A DNA stretch of 64,000 bases from Bryoerythrophyllum caledonicum (lineage: Eukaryota > Streptophyta > Bryopsida > Pottiales > Pottiaceae): assembly GCA_963971425.1 (NCBI GenBank), contig OZ020514.1, positions 17,085,406 to 17,149,405 on the forward strand, written 5' to 3'. Shown here piece after piece: positions 26,650-58,979 of this stretch. Under the pieces are notes generated by a model. It was not told the DNA's origin, made no database searches, and saw only the letters and a list, made by a program, of their open reading frames with translations. Made by a program: the position numbers and the translations under genes. Position 1 is the first letter of the stretch; each line of letters starts with the position of its first letter.

Positions 26650-29600
26650 GCATATTGTGCTGAGAGGAGATGCAAGGACTTAGTCTGAAGACCTATTTCT
26701 ATCATTAGGAGGTGATATTGAAACGAATCCGGGTCCTATGCGAAACATATTAAAAACTCACCCCCGCTCATAGTAGAAAAGCAAAAACGTATTTCATAAG
26801 AAACACAATAAAATTTCATTCAGAATAATAAAATCTAGCTAAAACATTTGCACCTTTACTAAAACCTCATCATCCAATACATAATGCTATTAGTACAACA
26901 TTTCCACACCTACATATATTTATACAAAATAAAATAACTAATTATCCAACCTCTCACATATTATATGAAATAATCACTACAATACATCTGACATAAACAC
27001 ATGTAACAATATACTTGCAGACCCTAATATACAAACAAACGAAACAAACCCTCTTCTACTACAATAAGCTAATTTAAACAATCCACCCCAAAGACGCATT
27101 TCCACATCACATCCACATACAAAGTTTCTTGAAACAAATCAAGGAATAATAAATGAAAAACAATCCATACACAAAGACCTCTATTACTTCATACACCTAG
27201 AGAATGATTCCCATCCTCTGTTGAAGTTCAAGGTAAATTCCCATTTTTTACCCACACAACTAATTACCAAATCACTACAATGCTTTGAACCAATTCCAGA
27301 ATATTCACATCCGCCACCGTTGCTCGACATACCAAACCCCCAACCCAAATCATACCCAACACAAACAACGAAACACATATTATTACATGGAATGCTTCAT
27401 CACTAAATACAGCTCTACCAAGTCTATAAAACCTAGTAATTAACCTCTGGACTCCTCCAGCACTCATCCACATTCAAGAAACCAAATTAACAGCCACTAA
27501 ATCAACAAAATATATACAAATAAGGATTCCTCCAATACAAATTAATTTTTAACTATACACATGTGCTTACTAGATGCATACGACAAAGAATGCCATATAC
27601 AACGGCAAGAGGAGGTTTATTAACATTCATACATAATATATATGCTTACCTTCGTAACATCACTAAAATCCCTACACCTACCAACATATCCCCATATCTA
27701 CAAATAATAAAAATTAACAACCAACCATTACAACCATGGCTGAACATACATATATACATGCCTTCCCATCTACAAGACCTACATTTAATCCCTATCATAC
27801 AAAGAAATATCTCTCACCAAATCTCAGCACATCTAAATCACACCTACATCCTATGTGGCAACTTTAACCGAGACATTGCCCTTATTGGAAGACAAAATTA
27901 TAACAACACTACCCCACCACAACTAGAAGATATACAATGGCGTAACTTTACTGACAACATCAACTTGACATATATACCTACCAATACACCATTCTCTAGA
28001 CAAGGTGGCTTCAACTACACAAGCACTAGCCTAATTGATGGTTTCTACATCAATTCGCCAAATAACAATGGATATACATCCATGACTATCACTGAAATGA
28101 ATCTCAACTCCGACCACTTCTCCATACACCTATACATCTCACAAAACACTTTACTAGCTAGACCCATTGCACCTTCACAAGCTACACAAACCTGCATTCT
28201 TAATCCCATTTCCCAAGAAAATCTAGAAAAATTTAACATTAAATTCTTTAAAGAAAACTCACTAGAATTAGACAACCTCACTACCTTTTTCAGAACAACC
28301 AACCACCTCAATCCAGTTAAGCCAAAAAAGTAAATAGAATAGTCTCTCGCATAAAAAAGAAGATTACAGTGATGTAACACATGCACAAAATTAGACAAAC
28401 TCATACAAAAAATCTCTGACACCCTTGAAGAAACATGCAAAGCCAACCCCTTATCAACACTAACAAATAGAACCGCACAACAAGGTGGATTTCTACCACG
28501 GAAATTATCTGAACCTTGGAAAAAACACCTTGCAACTTACCATCTCATTTGAAAAATCATATATACTGCTAAAAACCGACCAAGTTGACGCTCAAATCCA
28601 ATCATAAATGAAATCCGCAACCACCAAAACATTCAAATACCACTCCACTAACCCAACCACTCAAGTGATGACTGGACTAACCAAATCTCTGACATTGTCA
28701 AAGATGCAAATAAACAAGCTTGTGATATCTCAACAAAATATACCATGGAAAACTTAAAGAAAGCCATCTCAAAATATAGGAAACTATATGAAAAAAGCCC
28801 CAAAAAAGTACATAGAATAGTCTTCAATGATAGTGAAAATGCACCTCTTGATTGTATTTTAGACAGAAATAATAATATTCTTACTAGTCCAGAAGACATA
28901 GCCAACGAAATTCACACTCAACAATCAATAAGCAATAGACCTACAGTCCCTACGTGTTACTATCAGCCTGACTATACACCCAAATGCATGTGTGGTGTTA
29001 GACAATACCCATGGCAAGACCTTGATGGATTTACAATTGATACAAGAGGACGACCACAAATTCCAATGCACACATATTTTGTCCAAGAAACTTATGATAT
29101 GTGCCTTAAAAACCTTGGAAATAACAAAGCCCCTAGCCCTGACAAAATCTCCAACTCAATTCTAAAAAACATGCCACCTAGATTCCACAATATGCTATCT
29201 TTATTCTTTAAACACTACTACAAATAAAACAAATACCTACATCATGGAAAACCAGTCCCATAGTACTACTATATTAAAAAGGAGACCCATCACAACTAAC
29301 CAATCATAACCTATTGCCTTGGCAAACACAATATACAAACTATATACAAGCACGTTAACATCTATCCTTTCATTTTATGGTGAAAATACCAAAAACTACA
29401 TGATAGCCAAGAAGGTTTTAGAGCTGAAAGGCATACATCAAGACAACTACAAACACTTATAGCTGCACTAGAAGATGCGAAACTCACAAATCAAGACATT
29501 TATATATTATACATTGACTTTAAAATTGCCTTTGGATCCATTGATCATGCAAGACTTTTAGCAATAATGAAGGACCTTGGTTATCTTACGGATGCCATAG

Positions 29601-32600
29601 CACTAATAGGAAACATATACTCACAATCCACCACTACATTCATTGGAGAACATTTTGGAAAAATTTTGCCCATTCCCATTCAAAGAGGTACCATCCAAGG
29701 TGACACACTTAGCCCTTACCTAATTATTATCTTCCTAGAACCCCTCTTAAGATGGCTACAACAAGGCAACAATGGATACATATTTGATACATCAAAAGCA
29801 AAAATCTTCTCCGTAGTATACGCTGATGATTTAGCCGCGATTGCCAATAAACTAAAATCACTTCAAACACAACTAAATAAATTAGACAAATTCTTTGAAT
29901 GGGCAGTGATGGACCTAGGAATACCTAAATGTGTAGTTATCGGCTACCCAAACAAATCCAAAATGAACCCCATAACATTCAAAGCTCAAATACAAGTTAC
30001 TAACATCAACTACAAAAATCAGCCAATACTGGTACTACACCAAAACGAATCATATACATATCTGGGTATAAACTTAGTCCTATTACTGAAATGGAAAATA
30101 CAAATACATACCACTACCACCAAAGTTATAAAACAATGTAAAAAACTAGCAACTTGTCCAGCAACAATGAAACAAAAAATTATCATGGCCGACACAGTTA
30201 TAAGGACATGTATCGCATATAGCTTGTATGCAGTACCATACTCCTTGCCCGCCATCAAAAAGTTGGACAAAAAGATAATAGCTCTCCACAAAACAATATG
30301 TGGTCTCTCTAAAAGTACTTCAAACATAGCTACCTAACTACCACATGATCTATTTAGCATAGGAGAATCACCTCACTTAAAAATTCCTACCTTAGATGTA
30401 TTGGAGAACAACTTCAAAATGCCCTTAATGACACAGGAAGATTAGGAAAAATTTATAACGGCCTACTACAATTCATTCTATCTAAATTTGGAGGGTCCGA
30501 AAACATCCCGTGCATTAAATACCACCACTGTGTCCGATCACCTATTACAAGAACATTATTCTTACTCAAAAAAGAAGCTGGCGAACATCTAAAAAGTACA
30601 ATAGAAAAATTCCTAATAGATACCTCACCACTTGAAAATACATGGATGAGAGAAGTTAAAAACATCCCCGGGCTTAATTCAAAAACATCTCTCAAACTAC
30701 TACAGAAATTACTACTACACAATATAATAGATATCAAACAAATTATATTACTTAATGGCCGCAACATGATGAGTTCATATGAATTCAAAAATTACCACTC
30801 TACACCCACCAAACAAATAAAAAACGCACTACACATTTTAAACAACTATTTTGTTACCCAAAATGTTCACTGCAATGTCAAATACCATGTCCATACCACC
30901 ACCCAGCAAGAACCTTAAAAGATAACTACATCATTGAAAACCACATCATACTACCTAGGCAAATCGAACTGCCAACCCATCCTCCTCCCCCACCACATTC
31001 ATACCAACCCCCCACCCAAAAATATTCCTAAAAATCTCCAACAATTCCCTATGCACATAGTACTTGGTTATAAAAAACAACACTACATAGACTCTAACGG
31101 AATAGTAAAAAATGACACATCATATCTAAGCCAATGGAGACTACCAAACCATACCACATGTAATGAATGGCAGCCTCAAAGAGAATCATTCCCCTGGAAT
31201 GACCCTAATATTTGTAAACACCACACTGAACTTCTCAATCAATACTACACCAAAACACAACATCGGCACTTTTCTAACTTAATAAACGCATACTTTTCCA
31301 TTGAATAATAAAGAGACACAAGATTTGCATTAAACATTCCACTTGCCCACAAATCTATTAATGAATGTAATCCCGAAAGTGACATAGAAACAAACGTTAA
31401 CACCATACAAACACAACATGATGTAGCCCACATATATGAAAATAATGGCAGATACCTTATCACCATTTCTAAAACTAGACTTCACTGGCTATGGAACCAA
31501 TATCAAAAAGCAAAAAACAACCCACAGGGCCTTGAACCACCAACACAACTATTTGAAATTGAAATTGTGTGGTTATATCAAAGCTACAAATCCTGAATCC
31601 CAAAAAATGATCCACTACAACTTACGCAACACACACTACCAACACCAATATTAGACTTTCTCACATCAGCATTCAATATCAAGCACTTGTATTTCTCATC
31701 ACCAGTCACATGCCCCAAGCAACTCACTCAATTTTACTTGCCATTCTCATGTGGTGTAATATTTGGGTCTCTTGGTAAAGCCTTTGACCACAAATGGAAG
31801 GGCATTGGATATGCCATCCACACAACGAAATAGATACACAACAAAACATATACACAACAAGCTATACATTGGGCCCAATTAGTTGCCAAAAACGATCCAA
31901 ACACTATTACAATACTAATCTCCTCTGACATCAATTGGTACCAAAACTTTACCCCCTACACTGGCCCCTTCCTAGATACACACATCATAGCCCACTTTGC
32001 CGGAGATACCATCACATATGAAGAATCTACAGTACCCCAGAACTTAACTTGACACGAAAAGAACTCTCAACACTAAGAATTATGTGTATTCATCATCAAA
32101 ATAACAACATTGGAACTTATAAACTACTGAATCAACTTACATATATAGTTAACAACCTCTCGATACAACAAATACACACTCAAATTGCCACATCTACCCC
32201 TCCAAATTGCCCTGTTAACTACAACAAAAAATGGTCTAAACTCACCTACCCCAATACTCTTACACATAATAATACACCCATTCCCCAACTCCCAAACTAG
32301 CATACTAACCTTCCATTAAAATTTTACCCACAATTTAGTTATTATACCAATGGTTCGTTCAAAAAACCAAAAGAAATAAGCCCTGGAGTATGGAGAAAAG
32401 AAAGAGCAAGGTATGGCATATACAACCCCAAGGGACTACATATTGCCAAAAGGCTACATGGCCATCAAAATATCCTACGAGCCGAGATGATAGCCATACA
32501 CAAAACTCTGAGAATCATCAACACTCAATTCTCAAATGAACCTGCATATATATTCAACGACAGCCTAAACGTTCTTTTTCTACTAAACACACAAATAAAA

Positions 32601-33830
32601 CATCGGACACTACATATAAGCCACCCAGACTAAGTTACACTTGCTTCTATGGTACAACTGCTCCAAAACCGTACACAACCAATTACATTATACAAGGTAA
32701 GAGCCCATGTTAACATTGATGAAAATGAACAAGCTGATAAACTAGCAAAAGATGGTATTCACCTTGCACATAGAAACGCTACACATCCATACGAACACGC
32801 CCATGCTACACCATACTACTATCAAAAAGACGACTGGCCTTCCATGTTTGATACACTAGACAAAGGCCCTGTTCGATTTTTGGAAAAATAAATCATTAAA
32901 TACAATAGGAAATACAACCTAGAAATCATGGCCAGACAAACCCCTAATATGTATAAATGGATAGGTAATGCAGATATTGATAATGAACCCTCTAATGAAT
33001 TTTGGGACAACCCCACTATATCTGATAAACATGCCTCATCAAATTCCGCATTGGAACATATATGGGCCATGCTCGAAAACAACTATGTTTTGGTAGAGAA
33101 AGATATCCCTCCATCACTTGCCCCATTTGTAACTCATTGGACCCTGATACATGACTACACGTATTACTTACTTGCAGACAACAACACATACATTCACTTT
33201 GTGTTAAAAGGCACAACAAAGGAGAATGGAAAATTAGGAAACTACTAGTCTCTTCCAAAAAATCCAGATGCTATATTCTCATGAATGCAGGCACTTTCAA
33301 CAACAATCCCTAAGAAAATACCGTTCCTAATTGGTTACTTTCTTGTACATGTGGTATCCAAAGATGCCACTATAATGCCATATTTAGACCTGAATTACTC
33401 TGTGTCAAAGGACTACCCTACCAAAATGAACCATTTGTAAATGTTGAACAAAATCTCACCATACAATTTATTGAATTCACATATTGTAAGGATAGATTCT
33501 CTCCTGAAACCGTAGAAGAAAAAATCAACAAATACAGACCATTAACTGAAAGTATTGCTGCTAGAGGATGGAAAATTGACCCCCTTATTGTCATCGCAGC
33601 TGGTGCTAGAGGAGCTACGCACATTCCATCAAAGAAATGAATTGAAGACAAATTTAAAACATCTAAAACCACCATACAAAATACCTTCAAAAACATTAGT
33701 ACCATTGCTATCCAATACGCTATGCATATCCTCCTCCACAAAAGAAAACTAAAAAATCACCAACCCGTGCCTCAATTGCAAGAGCCACCCTAATTGTAAA
33801 TAAAAATTTAGTAGCTAGAGCTACTTTATT
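26650..33830 (+). mobile_element. LINE-type (APE-class) non-LTR retrotransposon with RNase H, decayed
   Basis: This long element copies itself by target-primed reverse transcription. In order: a 2A-like motif (26,693-26,737); an AP endonuclease with TWNASSLN (about 27,377), IHIQETKLT (about 27,470), GGLLTF, LCGNFNRD (about 27,860) and NSDHFSIH (about 28,108); the RT entry NKAPSPDKISNSIL (about 29,130), IDFKIAFGSIDH (about 29,515), IQRGTIQGDTLSP (about 29,680) and VVYADDLAAIA (about 29,815); an RNase H with YTNGSF (about 32,340), AEMIAIHKTL, FNDSLNVL and EQADKLAKDGI (about 32,727); and a C-terminal block IVIAAGARGATHIPSKK (about 33,585). The first RNase H Asp is Asn (YTNGS rather than YTDGS). 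Many stops and frame changes interrupt it, so this copy is dead. The plus strand is strikingly poor in G. EN-RT-RNase H order fits I-like or related clades; I cannot place it further by eye. Confidence 0.88.
26693..26737 (+). other. 2A-like ribosome-skipping motif (GDIETNPGP)
   Basis: Codons here read LFLSLGGDIETNPGP followed by Met, matching the 2A consensus D-V/I-E-x-N-P-G-P with the usual Leu-rich lead-in. In known 2A sequences the peptide bond between the final Gly and Pro is skipped during translation. It sits upstream of the endonuclease, the position described for 2A motifs in APE-type non-LTR elements. A TAG lies 9 bases before it and another stop 36 bases after, so this copy cannot use it. 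Confidence 0.85.
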
Positions 33831-34024: not shown

Positions 34025-36436
34025 TATCATCAAACTTAAAAAAACACACTATTTTACTGCAAAACTTCGATACCTAAACCTACTCAGGCTCTGACCACTC
34101 GTGGTCTTTGTTATTGGTCAGTGGATATTAAAGTGTCTACTCTCAAAAGGGAGAAGTAGTCCTATCCATCTATTCATATGTCCCGTAGGCTTAGGTCTAG
34201 AGGTGGAACAAACAAACACTTTACTCACACCGATCTCATTCAGAGACCAGAGTTACTCCTTCTCTATTGCTTTGGTGTTAATGGCGTTGGATCTGACGTG
34301 TTAATGCGATGCCAAGTTGAAATTGGGTGCACATAGCTATGGAGGTGCTAATTTGGACAAGGAGGGTATTGGAGAGCTCTGATCGGGGGTTTCTATAGAG
34401 TGTTGTTGAATAGAAGTGGAGTACGCGGTGGCGCTTGTGTTTTCCCCTTGCCATTACGGTGCTCTTTCAAATGGGCCTTGTCTTGTTGTTTTCCTTGAAA
34501 CAAAGCAGAGAGAGAGATAGAGAGGAGAGATCCGGCTGTTGGGAGCTGTGGGTAGTTCCAAGTATCTAGGTTTGTGTGTTTTGTTGTTGTTAGTGGGGAT
34601 CTTCTTGGTATTTGAATTCGTCTGTGCATCACCTGTTTAGTTTATCGTGAGACGCAAGTGCTGTGGTTTGATGTTCCTTGTGCTCTTCGTTGTGTGTCCT
34701 TAGGATTTTGTGCTACAACTGAGACATATTCCTAGCTGCCAGGCATTCTCAGTGGATTGGTTAAAGTGACGGATTCTGTGTTGTTTTCTCCCTCCTCTAT
34801 TGTCTCTGTCTTGTGAGGATTGTCGCTTTCTCTGATGTTGCCTTGGAGGACTATCTCTATGGGTTTCTCTTTGCTCCATCCGTTTTCCGAAACTTGGAAT
34901 TTTGTAATGTTTTCATGGCCTGAGAGGTTTCTGTCTCATTTGTTTTCTGTTCTCTATGTATCTAAGGTCCGTGCAATCTAGATGTGTAGTAGAGAGTTGA
35001 GAGGAGGTAGGTACCGTCGCGGAAGACAACGTCATGCAGGCACGTCGACATAAAGATGAGTATCTACGAGGAAGACGACGTCGTCGAGAGGCGGTGACAG
35101 GGGGTGAGTGCCGAAACACTTGAACTCGCTACCGTATCCTCCACAGGTACGCGACCCATGCAATACCGTACGTATACTATACCATATATGTATTGTAATT
35201 GTATAGTAAGCCATAATCTGTAGCGCACATGTGCGTTCACATTGCAATAGGTTTTGATGACTCAGAGATGAATTAAAATTCCTCATCTAGAGCCTTCATC
35301 CAAGTAATCACTACTACTTCTGCAACATCAACTACTAATTCATGCATGTGGTATGGGGTAGGATTTGGAGAAGAGAGGATAAGGTACAAACTTTGAAGCT
35401 TGAGGGCATTTCTAAAATGGTCTAAAGGTGTCACCAAAATATTTGGGCTATGTGGAGTATGGACCATGGATGGAAGAGGTAAGAGCAAGCAACTGGAAGA
35501 CTCTACTTCACCTAAAGGAGAGATTAGTGGTGAAGTATTGGACACCTTGATTTCTAGCTTGCAGAGTTTCCACATTAAGAATACTTCTTCTGAGGCAAGT
35601 GGTAGTGGCACAAAGTTTAAGCGCTCTCTTATAGCCAAGTCTCGCACATGCACTCAGGATTTGCACAAGCTTGGCACCAAGGTCTTAAGTATAGAATCTG
35701 TAAAGTATTGGACTTCACTAGGCGGGGTTCGTAAAATTCGAGCACTTCGGGCAAATGAGGGCATTCTTACACCTTTGTGCTACGCTTGAGGTCAAGTGGA
35801 CACTGACGACTTGGTAGTTGCTGAAAGGGCAGTTGCATTAAGAAATTTTGGCTCAAGGTATACAGTAAAGATATAGGACTTCTCTCGGGGAGTCAAACTA
35901 CTCCCATTCTCTCTCATCTTCACTGAATTTGAGAGTGAGGGCTTCTTGTTCCACACCACGTGGCACTGGAAGGTAGGCACTTGGCGAGAGCGAGCTAGTA
36001 GTATGTGAGGCTCGACTGGAAAGTGTTTTGCCATGAGGCTAGAATCTTGCCATGAAGCTACTCAGGATTTGCACAAGCTTGATAGTAGGTGTTTCTCCTA
36101 GTGAAACCATGAAGCTACTTGATTGGAAAGTGTCACCTAGCATCTATGCACCAAAGATTAAGGGTACCCATGAAGCATGGGGTTCTTTAAAGTGAATCAC
36201 TTAACTCCCAACTTGGATTCGAGGAAGGGGCCTGGTTTCACTAGGAGAAATACCTCCTGTGCTATAGGTGTCCATGAGCAAGTGTTAGAGGAGATTGTCA
36301 CTCATCCGGAAGAGGTAGTAGATCTGATGTTACCATCGGTGGAAGAGGAATAATTGTTTGACCAGCGTGGGGTGGATGTTGTAGTACCAAATTTGCTCAG
36401 GAGGCTACAACAATCATATTTTAATTGAGAAGACAT
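34025..36436. other. No gene recognised; possible retroelement leader
   Basis: The region mixes short frames. The longest, 35,400-35,789 plus (129 codons, TTG start; Ser/Lys-rich), has no domain and may belong to the degraded element that follows. CTCAGGATTTGCACAAGCTTG appears at 35,654 and again at about 36,060, a short direct repeat. Confidence 0.4.
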
Positions 36437-57667: not shown

Positions 57668-58693
57668 CTACCATCGTGTATAGCCACCTTTTGCTTGATA
57701 AACATCTGCAGCTCTCTCAGGCATAGACATGATCAATTTCCTCACGGTATCAATCTCAATGCTATACCAAATTTCTTGCAATTTCTCCCACAAATCCTTC
57801 TTGTTAGTGGGTTTCTTCTTTGACATTCTCATACGACGATCTACTTCATTCCAAAGGTGTTCTATAGGATTCAAGTCAGGAGATTGAGCCGGATGCCAAA
57901 TTAGTTGAAACTTCTGTGCTAACAACCAATCTGTAACATACTTAGAAGTATGTTTGGGATCGTTGTCGTGCTGAAAAATAACATTCTCCTCTCCTAAATC
58001 ATACATGTGTATAGTATTCATGAGCTCCATCTCCAAAATTTCACGATACACAAACTTATCCATGTTTCCTTCTATAAGACGAAGGTTGCCAATTCCCTCC
58101 CAAGTCATACATCCCCAAACCATAATGTTTCCACCTCCAAATTTGATAGTAGGTTGCACATGCTGATCTAAAAGATGCTCTCCTCTCTTCCTCCAACAAT
58201 ACTGCCTCCCATCTGAGCCAAACAAATTGAATTTTGACTCATCTGAAAAAACCACATAACTCCAGTCCATCCAACTTGCATGCCTACACTTCTTTGCCCA
58301 TGCATATCGACGTGCTTTGTGTTTCTTTGACAAGAATGGCTTCTTAGTTTTCACTCGTGCTCTCAATCCTTGCCTCTGAAGACATCTTCTAATTGTATCA
58401 TCACTCAAATCCAATCCTTGAGATCGCATTTCTCTACCCACTGCTGCAGCTGTACCATTAGATGGTGCATTCAACAACCTTACAACCTCACGATCACCAC
58501 GTTCATCAAGAATTCGAGGTCTCCCTTGTGAAGGAGCATCTCTCAAATGACCTCTCATTGTAAACCTCCGCACAATAGCATGGCAAGTGCTTCGAGAGAT
58601 GCCTAGAACCGCTGAAATTTCGGAGTACGAATTCCCTCTCTCATGCATCTGAAGAACTAACTTACGTTCAGCAAGAGTCCTTCTAGGAGCCAT
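57668..58693 (-). CDS. Tc1-type transposase, DD34E, intact
   Basis: This encodes a cut-and-paste transposase that binds the inverted repeats and inserts at TA. It is 341 residues long, typical for Tc1, with ATG at 58,693 and stop TAG at 57,668. Residues 1-110 hold two helix-turn-helix units (RKLVLQMHERGNSYSEISAV; second around residues 66-110) separated by a GRPR hook (57-60). The catalytic triad is D151 in VVFSDESKFNLF, D243 in FQHDNDPKHTS and E278 in PDLNPIEHLW; 34 residues lie between the last two, giving DD34E. A Gly-rich loop (FGGGNIMVWGCM) precedes the second Asp. There is no stop, frameshift or missing key residue. Plant mariner-like transposases usually have DD39D, so this type is unusual in a plant-like contig. 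Transfer from another kingdom is possible; contamination must also be excluded. Confidence 0.96.
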   Translation of the reverse strand: MAPRRTLAERKLVLQMHERGNSYSEISAVLGISRSTCHAIVRRFTMRGHLRDAPSQGRPRILDERGDREVVRLLNAPSNGTAAAVGREMRSQGLDLSDDTIRRCLQRQGLRARVKTKKPFLSKKHKARRYAWAKKCRHASWMDWSYVVFSDESKFNLFGSDGRQYCWRKRGEHLLDQHVQPTIKFGGGNIMVWGCMTWEGIGNLRLIEGNMDKFVYREILEMELMNTIHMYDLGEENVIFQHDNDPKHTSKYVTDWLLAQKFQLIWHPAQSPDLNPIEHLWNEVDRRMRMSKKKPTNKKDLWEKLQEIWYSIEIDTVRKLIMSMPERAADVYQAKGGYTRW

Positions 58694-58979
58694 AGCTAAT
58701 CAAGAGCAATCTTATTCAATCACAATGTGTCTTGAAATGCAAGAGGTCTCCATAAATACATGTCGATTCTCAAGATTTTTCAGATGCACAACTTGTGTGC
58801 ATAATGAATTGGACACCCATGATTGACACATCATGAACTGCAGCCCATGCAAGTGGCTCAATGTGAATGATGGTACTCTTTCTAGTTTACAAGTGGCTCT
58901 TTAGTTATAATTAGCTGAAAAAATCAGCACCTACCTACCAAACTCGACAAGTGTTACTATTAAATTGAGATTGTAATTA

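Follow-up and report, generated by a model that had tools for sequence, protein, structure and literature searches.

Heras (2006) and Odon (2013) reportedly described 2A-bearing non-LTR elements of the APE type, namely trypanosome L1Tc and elements of sea urchin and other animals. 2A sequences in non-LTR elements of trypanosomes and animals are likewise treated in the available part of PMC4981915, as is an N-terminal 2A of animals that carries a hydrophobic tract and works in Nicotiana benthamiana. A 2026 survey covering almost 10,000 viral StopGo sequences (PMC12846837) sets out, in its available part, the StopGo mechanism and an LLLLSG-like upstream class in which (A/S/C)G precedes the Asp; it finds there no sign that plant viruses use StopGo naturally, though StopGo works in plants. 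Among the open-access titles and abstracts listed by the searches, no report of a 2A in a plant LINE was found, which is no proof of absence.

A further point of reference is the Dualen/RandI group, for which, to our knowledge, neither a 2A nor a PCIF1-like domain is known. Its members in green algae carry an APE endonuclease, a restriction-like endonuclease (RLE) and an RNase H in one polyprotein and end in a non-A 3' repeat tail. The element reported here has the APE endonuclease, the RNase H and such a tail, and probably also an RLE, which is named from motifs. The group is described in the part of PMC4640811 at hand and placed in green algae in that of PMC8226300, while in the accessible part of PMC3747384 flowering plants have L1 and RTE, RandI (8 families) is assigned to green algae, and bryophytes do not figure.

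The 2A described here, a kind of signal familiar mainly from animal viruses, lies in the window, the whole stretch of 64,000 nucleotides analysed from the moss Bryoerythrophyllum caledonicum, at the front of a decayed element whose layout looks Dualen/RandI-like (Table 1). As in L1Tc and the animal elements, a 2A core is found in an APE-type non-LTR protein, but here the host is a plant, an RNase H, a PCIF1-like domain and a probable second nuclease are present, and the 2A comes after a low-complexity leader. With viral LLLLSG-like StopGo sequences it shares an L-rich hexapeptide ending in a small residue and G, followed by D-I-E-x-N-P-G-P, although the element is not viral. The 2A signal sequences of sea urchin NLR proteins, according to the available part of PMC4981915, also front a large protein with a hydrophobic tract and are active in plant cells; they differ in belonging to a host immune gene and in placing a 26-residue 2A at the very N-terminus, without a long leader.

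The window element and its intact relatives

The first-pass annotation had described an exact 2A signature ahead of the AP endonuclease of a dead LINE. Translation confirms the signature at 26693-26737 with an ATG directly after it, all nine residues of GDIETNPGP being the same as in an intact relative (L039), and no further D[VI]ExNPGP site was detected in the six frames of the 64 kb. That the window copy is dead also holds, as it contains 26 stops in its first tblastn segment (26693-30361) and several frame changes, while ahead of the 2A its 5' part is either missing or no longer recognisable. An APE endonuclease precedes the reverse transcriptase (RT) of this non-LTR element, which resembles Dualen/RandI more than it does the usual LINEs of plants. 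The motif is in frame with the endonuclease (EN) in intact copies, where EN and RT share one frame, whereas the window 2A has the same phase as an EN-like ORF (27524-28333) with stops intervening. No Pfam match was obtained for the window APE fragment alone, and its family is assigned via L039 (PF03372). At the other end of the copy, 134 bases of 3' UTR are 74.6% identical to that of L039.

Two neighbouring features were observed besides. The last exon of a PRL1/PLRG1-like gene, a fragment recognised by eye, lies about 1.2 kb upstream of the element, and an intact-looking Tc1/mariner transposase of 343 aa (PF13358, PF01498) is encoded on the minus strand at window positions 57668-58699. Its spacing reads DD34E by eye; plant mariner elements are usually DD39D. 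Elsewhere in the genome, three rbcL matches were obtained, and the one compared with the PDB is closest to Rubisco large chains that we take to be plant enzymes; together with the PRL1-like gene, which is plant-like, this indicates a plant host, although the rbcL contigs (95 kb for the one read) could be of plastid origin.

Table 1. Features of the window element and of relatives (window positions unless a copy is named; aa, amino acid)
Feature	Location	Strand	Evidence
2A/StopGo-like peptide LFLSLGGDIETNPGP, then Met	26693..26737	+	window translation; next codon ATG
Decayed non-LTR element, looks Dualen/RandI-like	26693..~34264	+	67% nucleotide identity to L039 over 26706-33766
ORF2 polyprotein N-terminal domain (MPN..., no known family), decayed	26738..27340, approximate limits	+	46% aa identity to L039, 197 codons
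APE-type endonuclease domain	27360..28140, approximate limits	+	motifs QETK 27475, CGNFNRD 27854, NSDH 28106
Reverse transcriptase	29393..30076	+	PF00078 E 2.5e-20 on window 29384-30337; YADDL 29819-29833
PCIF1-like domain, decayed	31516..31932, approximate, placed from L039	+	FGSLGKAFDHKW at 31762-31797
RNase H domain	32340..32750	+	YYTNGS 32340, ADKLAK 32733; PF00075 on L039, L042, L043
CCHC knuckle and probable restriction-like endonuclease	33119..33748	+	motifs alone: CPIC 33119, RPELLC, EFTY 33473
3' terminal block, decayed	34241..34264	+	matches hairpin and TTC tail of young copies
PCIF1-like domain between RT and RNase H	L039:5836-6252; L042:5712-6614; L043:5775-6677		
Conserved 3' terminal hairpin-like block	L039:8324-8355; L041:8356-8387; L042:8270-8302; L043:8345-8377		

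In L039, a single open frame runs through the 2A, the N-terminal domain, the APE endonuclease (PF03372, E 5e-6, over the cut-off), the RT (PF00078, over the cut-off), the PCIF1-like domain, the RNase H and a knuckle region. Two copies of a second lineage (lineage B), L042 and L043, have an RT 78-80% identical to that of L039; their EN matches stay below the cut-off, while the PCIF1-like domain and the RNase H, which lies downstream of the RT in all three copies, exceed it. The C-terminal region of L039 shows a CxxC-x9-H-x4-C knuckle followed by KPD...IEFTY...KxxKY, and the probable RLE is named from the motifs CxxC-x9-H-x4-C and (K/R)P(D/E)..E..K alone, with L043 reading KSD; a PDB profile search of the region returned no RLE and one unrelated weak match (E 0.79). 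When the RT was compared with the PDB, the best R2 chain reached 109.7 bits and the best L1 chain 77.3, with 62 for 8gh6 and 58 for 8ibw, both of which we take to be R2 entries. On sequence, the order of APE, RT, RNase H and motif-based RLE looks like that of Dualen/RandI.

The PCIF1-like domain matches PF12237 over the cut-off in L039 (E 3e-12), L042 (5e-11) and L043 (2e-10), and a sequence comparison with the PDB matches it weakly to PCIF1 (E 0.4-0.5). The catalytic motif of PCIF1 is NPPF. In a by-eye alignment of the stretch just beyond the end of the PDB alignment, HPHN stands where this motif would fall in all four copies compared, and because NPPF apparently reads HPHN, methyltransferase activity is doubtful; the domain is possibly a captured, inactive cap-methyltransferase-like module.

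Among the 150 scored of 4,065 first-look candidates, the 41 top-scoring ORF2 matches are 100% identical over 200 N-terminal ORF2 residues. In this young subfamily, 33 of the 41, spread over many contigs, have open frames of identical length (3,087 codons). The three such copies on contig C1 (at 3622089, 7115306 and 8811822) all carry the exact 2A motif. Two copies were examined by eye for target-site duplications: L039 has a 12-bp repeat, TCTTGGTATTTG, that shares its first bases with the tail, and the other has an imprecise longer repeat alone. A hairpin-like block followed by TTC repeats forms the 3' end in all five copies read (L039, L041, L042, L043 and L098). The block may be the recognition site of the RT. 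Folding of the 3' UTR gave z -1.45, not clearly beyond chance. No relatives of the element were found among the viral contigs or genome contigs searched, both poor sources of plant elements. As part of the explanation preferred below, the 2A family is probably abundant and recently active in this genome.

Conservation of the 2A peptide

From base composition, about 5e-5 chance matches are expected per 64 kb and 0.36 per 437-Mb genome. The genome contains 1,402 exact GDIETNPGP-coding sites (712+690; reversed control 0), and a broader pattern (D, a codon whose second base is T, E, an unrestricted residue and N-P-G-P) occurs at 1,720 exact sites (882+838; reversed control 2). The downstream peptide YFIP(N/S)TIKL, with 1,679 exact sites, comes close to this number.

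Relatives selected without the motif comprised 28 ORF1-anchored loci with a recognisable ORF2 start (among 30 fetched and 150 scored) and 19 plus-strand loci of 87-92% identity, hand-picked among 150 scored in an ORF2 search. The exact core is kept in 41 of these 47 and the six losses, NPRP (2), NLGP (3) and NPSP (1), are each one residue off. On C1:1-32.23 Mb, an exact 2A stands at the expected place in 76 of the first 100 peptide-bearing copies, and conversely the peptide is present in 76 of 97 copies with a 2A. Sixteen of the 24 peptide copies without an exact core were fetched; in every one the 2A is present but point-mutated or decayed, sharing the frame of the peptide in 12 and lying in another in 4 (L102, L103, L109, L114), and no subfamily lacking the 2A appeared among them. 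The refuting condition set by the first-pass annotation, relatives without the motif or with it out of frame, was examined in this way, and the outcome favours the annotation: all the exceptions fetched are decayed copies. Decay of the 2A after insertion is common, as the six single-residue losses and the 24 of 100 copies without an exact core illustrate.

The core (D/G/C/N)(V/I)ExNPGP is present in the window and in its relatives. The protected block extends from Lys -16 to Asn +2 and reads approximately K-L-L-(I/L)-(L/I)-L-(C/G/S)-G-D-I-E-x-N-P-G-P-M-P-N with x free, whereas the residues upstream of it are highly variable (44 distinct sequences). Within the core, the most variable position is x (T, I, K, M), where the StopGo rules allow freedom. 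Residue -10 is C in 21, G in 16 and S in 7 of the 44 distinct sequences. An L-rich tract followed by (A/S/C)G is found upstream of the core, the LCG and LSG forms fitting the viral class; the LGG form, shared by the window with many lineage A copies, falls outside the viral (A/S/C) preference and counts against skipping.

Compared with L039, the 2A region gives dN/dS values of 0.18 for L042 and 0.08 for L043, and the 15 aligned 2A codons of the window give Sd 12/13 and Nd 3/32, ratios that are rough because synonymous sites are near saturation. Change between the lineages in the 2A region is mainly synonymous. Conservation of the segment at the RNA level was also considered and judged unlikely because third codon positions vary.

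Leader, ORF1 and start codons upstream of the 2A

ORF1 and ORF2 do not form one frame in 26 of the 28 ORF1-anchored copies, owing to a stop before ORF2 in 25 and a different frame in one; the two exceptions are L047 and L059, the latter with a stop inside ORF1. Relative to ORF1, ORF2 takes its frame at random: 9 copies are in frame, and 10 and 9 are in the other two frames. A general role of the 2A as the joint between ORF1 and ORF2 was therefore rejected, and because the two are so rarely one frame, the 2A would shed a low-complexity leader and not ORF1. The N-terminal product proposed by the first-pass annotation needs to be amended to this extent: the 2A does precede the EN-RT polyprotein, but what it would split off is usually the leader.

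The 2A frame extends upstream through low-complexity sequence, and codons -1 to -20 of 51 motif-chosen copies contain a single stop in this frame versus 140 and 40 in the others. Downstream, as read from the sequence of intact copies, the 2A lies within an open frame continuous with the enzymes. The leader contains no recognised domain that would account for a benefit of shedding it, a point against skipping.

Start codons differ between groups of copies. In a young-subfamily copy (L046+L039), whose 5' end was placed by comparing two copies, in-frame ATGs occur 263, 255, 223, 219 and 171 codons ahead of the 2A. Counting against skipping, six ATGs that open short frames come before the long one, and the leader itself contains one ATG in another frame. 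Five DIEKNPGP copies (L032 and L064 being one copy) have in common an in-frame ATG 66-67 codons before the 2A. In lineage B, an in-frame ATG upstream of the 2A is present in only 7 of 25 copies, again counting against skipping, and 17 of 25 scanned spacers are free of ATGs in all three frames, which leaves the Met after NPGP as the first. Across both lineages, 14 of 30 motif-chosen copies lack an in-frame ATG in the part read.

Some further observations concern this upstream region. Between ORF1 and the 2A, the lineage B spacers L047-L076 contain long CAA-type repeats that encode poly-Gln, poly-Asn or poly-Thr depending on the frame. The ORF1 product of this lineage (L042:2-538, L043:1-720) shows an RRM-like stretch and a C-terminal coiled coil by eye, and has no Pfam match over the cut-off. 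Remnants of a second 2A unit occur in the leader, YYKLLILIGGDINTRPN in L039:1-1062 and GRDIGTIPGPMPNILK in L040:51-400, which suggests that 5' ends are reassembled from parts of other copies.

Proposed ribosome skipping, its alternatives and their implications

We consider it likely that the motif is a true 2A that heads a Dualen/RandI-like ORF2 polyprotein and that ribosome skipping frees the enzyme polyprotein. A ribosome would enter the 2A frame upstream and synthesise a low-complexity leader ending in K-L-L-x-x-L-x-G-D-I-E-x-N-P-G, whereupon the nascent 2A in the exit tunnel would block formation of the Gly-Pro bond and the leader would be released. Synthesis would then resume at the Pro and yield a polyprotein of about 2,340 residues that begins with P-M-P-N and comprises, in this order, the N-terminal domain, the APE endonuclease, the RT, the PCIF1-like domain, the RNase H and the probable RLE. 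We infer the skipping, its efficiency and the role of the leader; what is observed is that the peptide is conserved and in frame with the enzymes, that change is mainly synonymous and that intact copies exist.

A nine-residue match by chance in a dead element would suit the state of the window copy itself, yet the expectation per window, the excess of 1,720 genomic sites over two in the control and the retention of the 2A in relatives picked without regard to it leave this reading practically no probability, and we regard it as ruled out by the relatives and the genome counts. The peptide might alternatively be conserved as another protein-level feature, for instance as a short hydrophobic stretch that starts the ORF2 protein and serves in targeting or as a membrane signal, with no skipping involved. 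The hydrophobic K-L-L-x-x-L tract ahead of the core would accord with such a signal, as would the animal N-terminal 2A that doubles as a signal sequence in the available part of PMC4981915. A targeting signal, however, would have no need of a D-I-E-x-N-P-G-P that leaves x free, as the StopGo rule does, and N-P-G-P is altered through isolated losses scattered over single copies, so that we hold this alternative to be improbable.

The 2A could also be the fossil of an ancestor in which ORF1 and ORF2 shared a frame: ribosomes would now cross an AUG-poor repeat spacer after ORF1 and reinitiate, so that ORF2 starts exclusively at the Met that follows NPGP. Both the separation and random relative frame of ORF1 and ORF2 and the position of this Met as the first ATG of most scanned lineage B spacers would agree with it. 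We nevertheless consider a fossil highly improbable, since the peptide has been kept through near-saturated synonymous change, the young subfamily has in-frame ATGs far upstream, and the five DIEKNPGP copies share theirs. Skipping at a genuine 2A remains our preferred reading, and for lineage B a design with two entries may be entertained, if with considerable doubt. Here the ORF1 stop would be followed by the AUG-poor CAA-type repeat spacer and then by the 2A, whose frame would be entered without a normal AUG, with the first AUG placed exactly after the skip site. If this were true, skipping and direct initiation would yield a near-identical N-terminus, P-MPN or MPN, and the output would be robust to changes in spacer length and frame from copy to copy.

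The natural variants of the 2A (x = T, I, K or M; C, G or S at -10) lend themselves to testing which positions matter. Membership in a Dualen-like group, if true, would place such an element in a plant genome, and if the peptide is kept under selection, more than 1,000 2A sites in a plant retrotransposon family would represent a natural, endogenous use of StopGo in plants.
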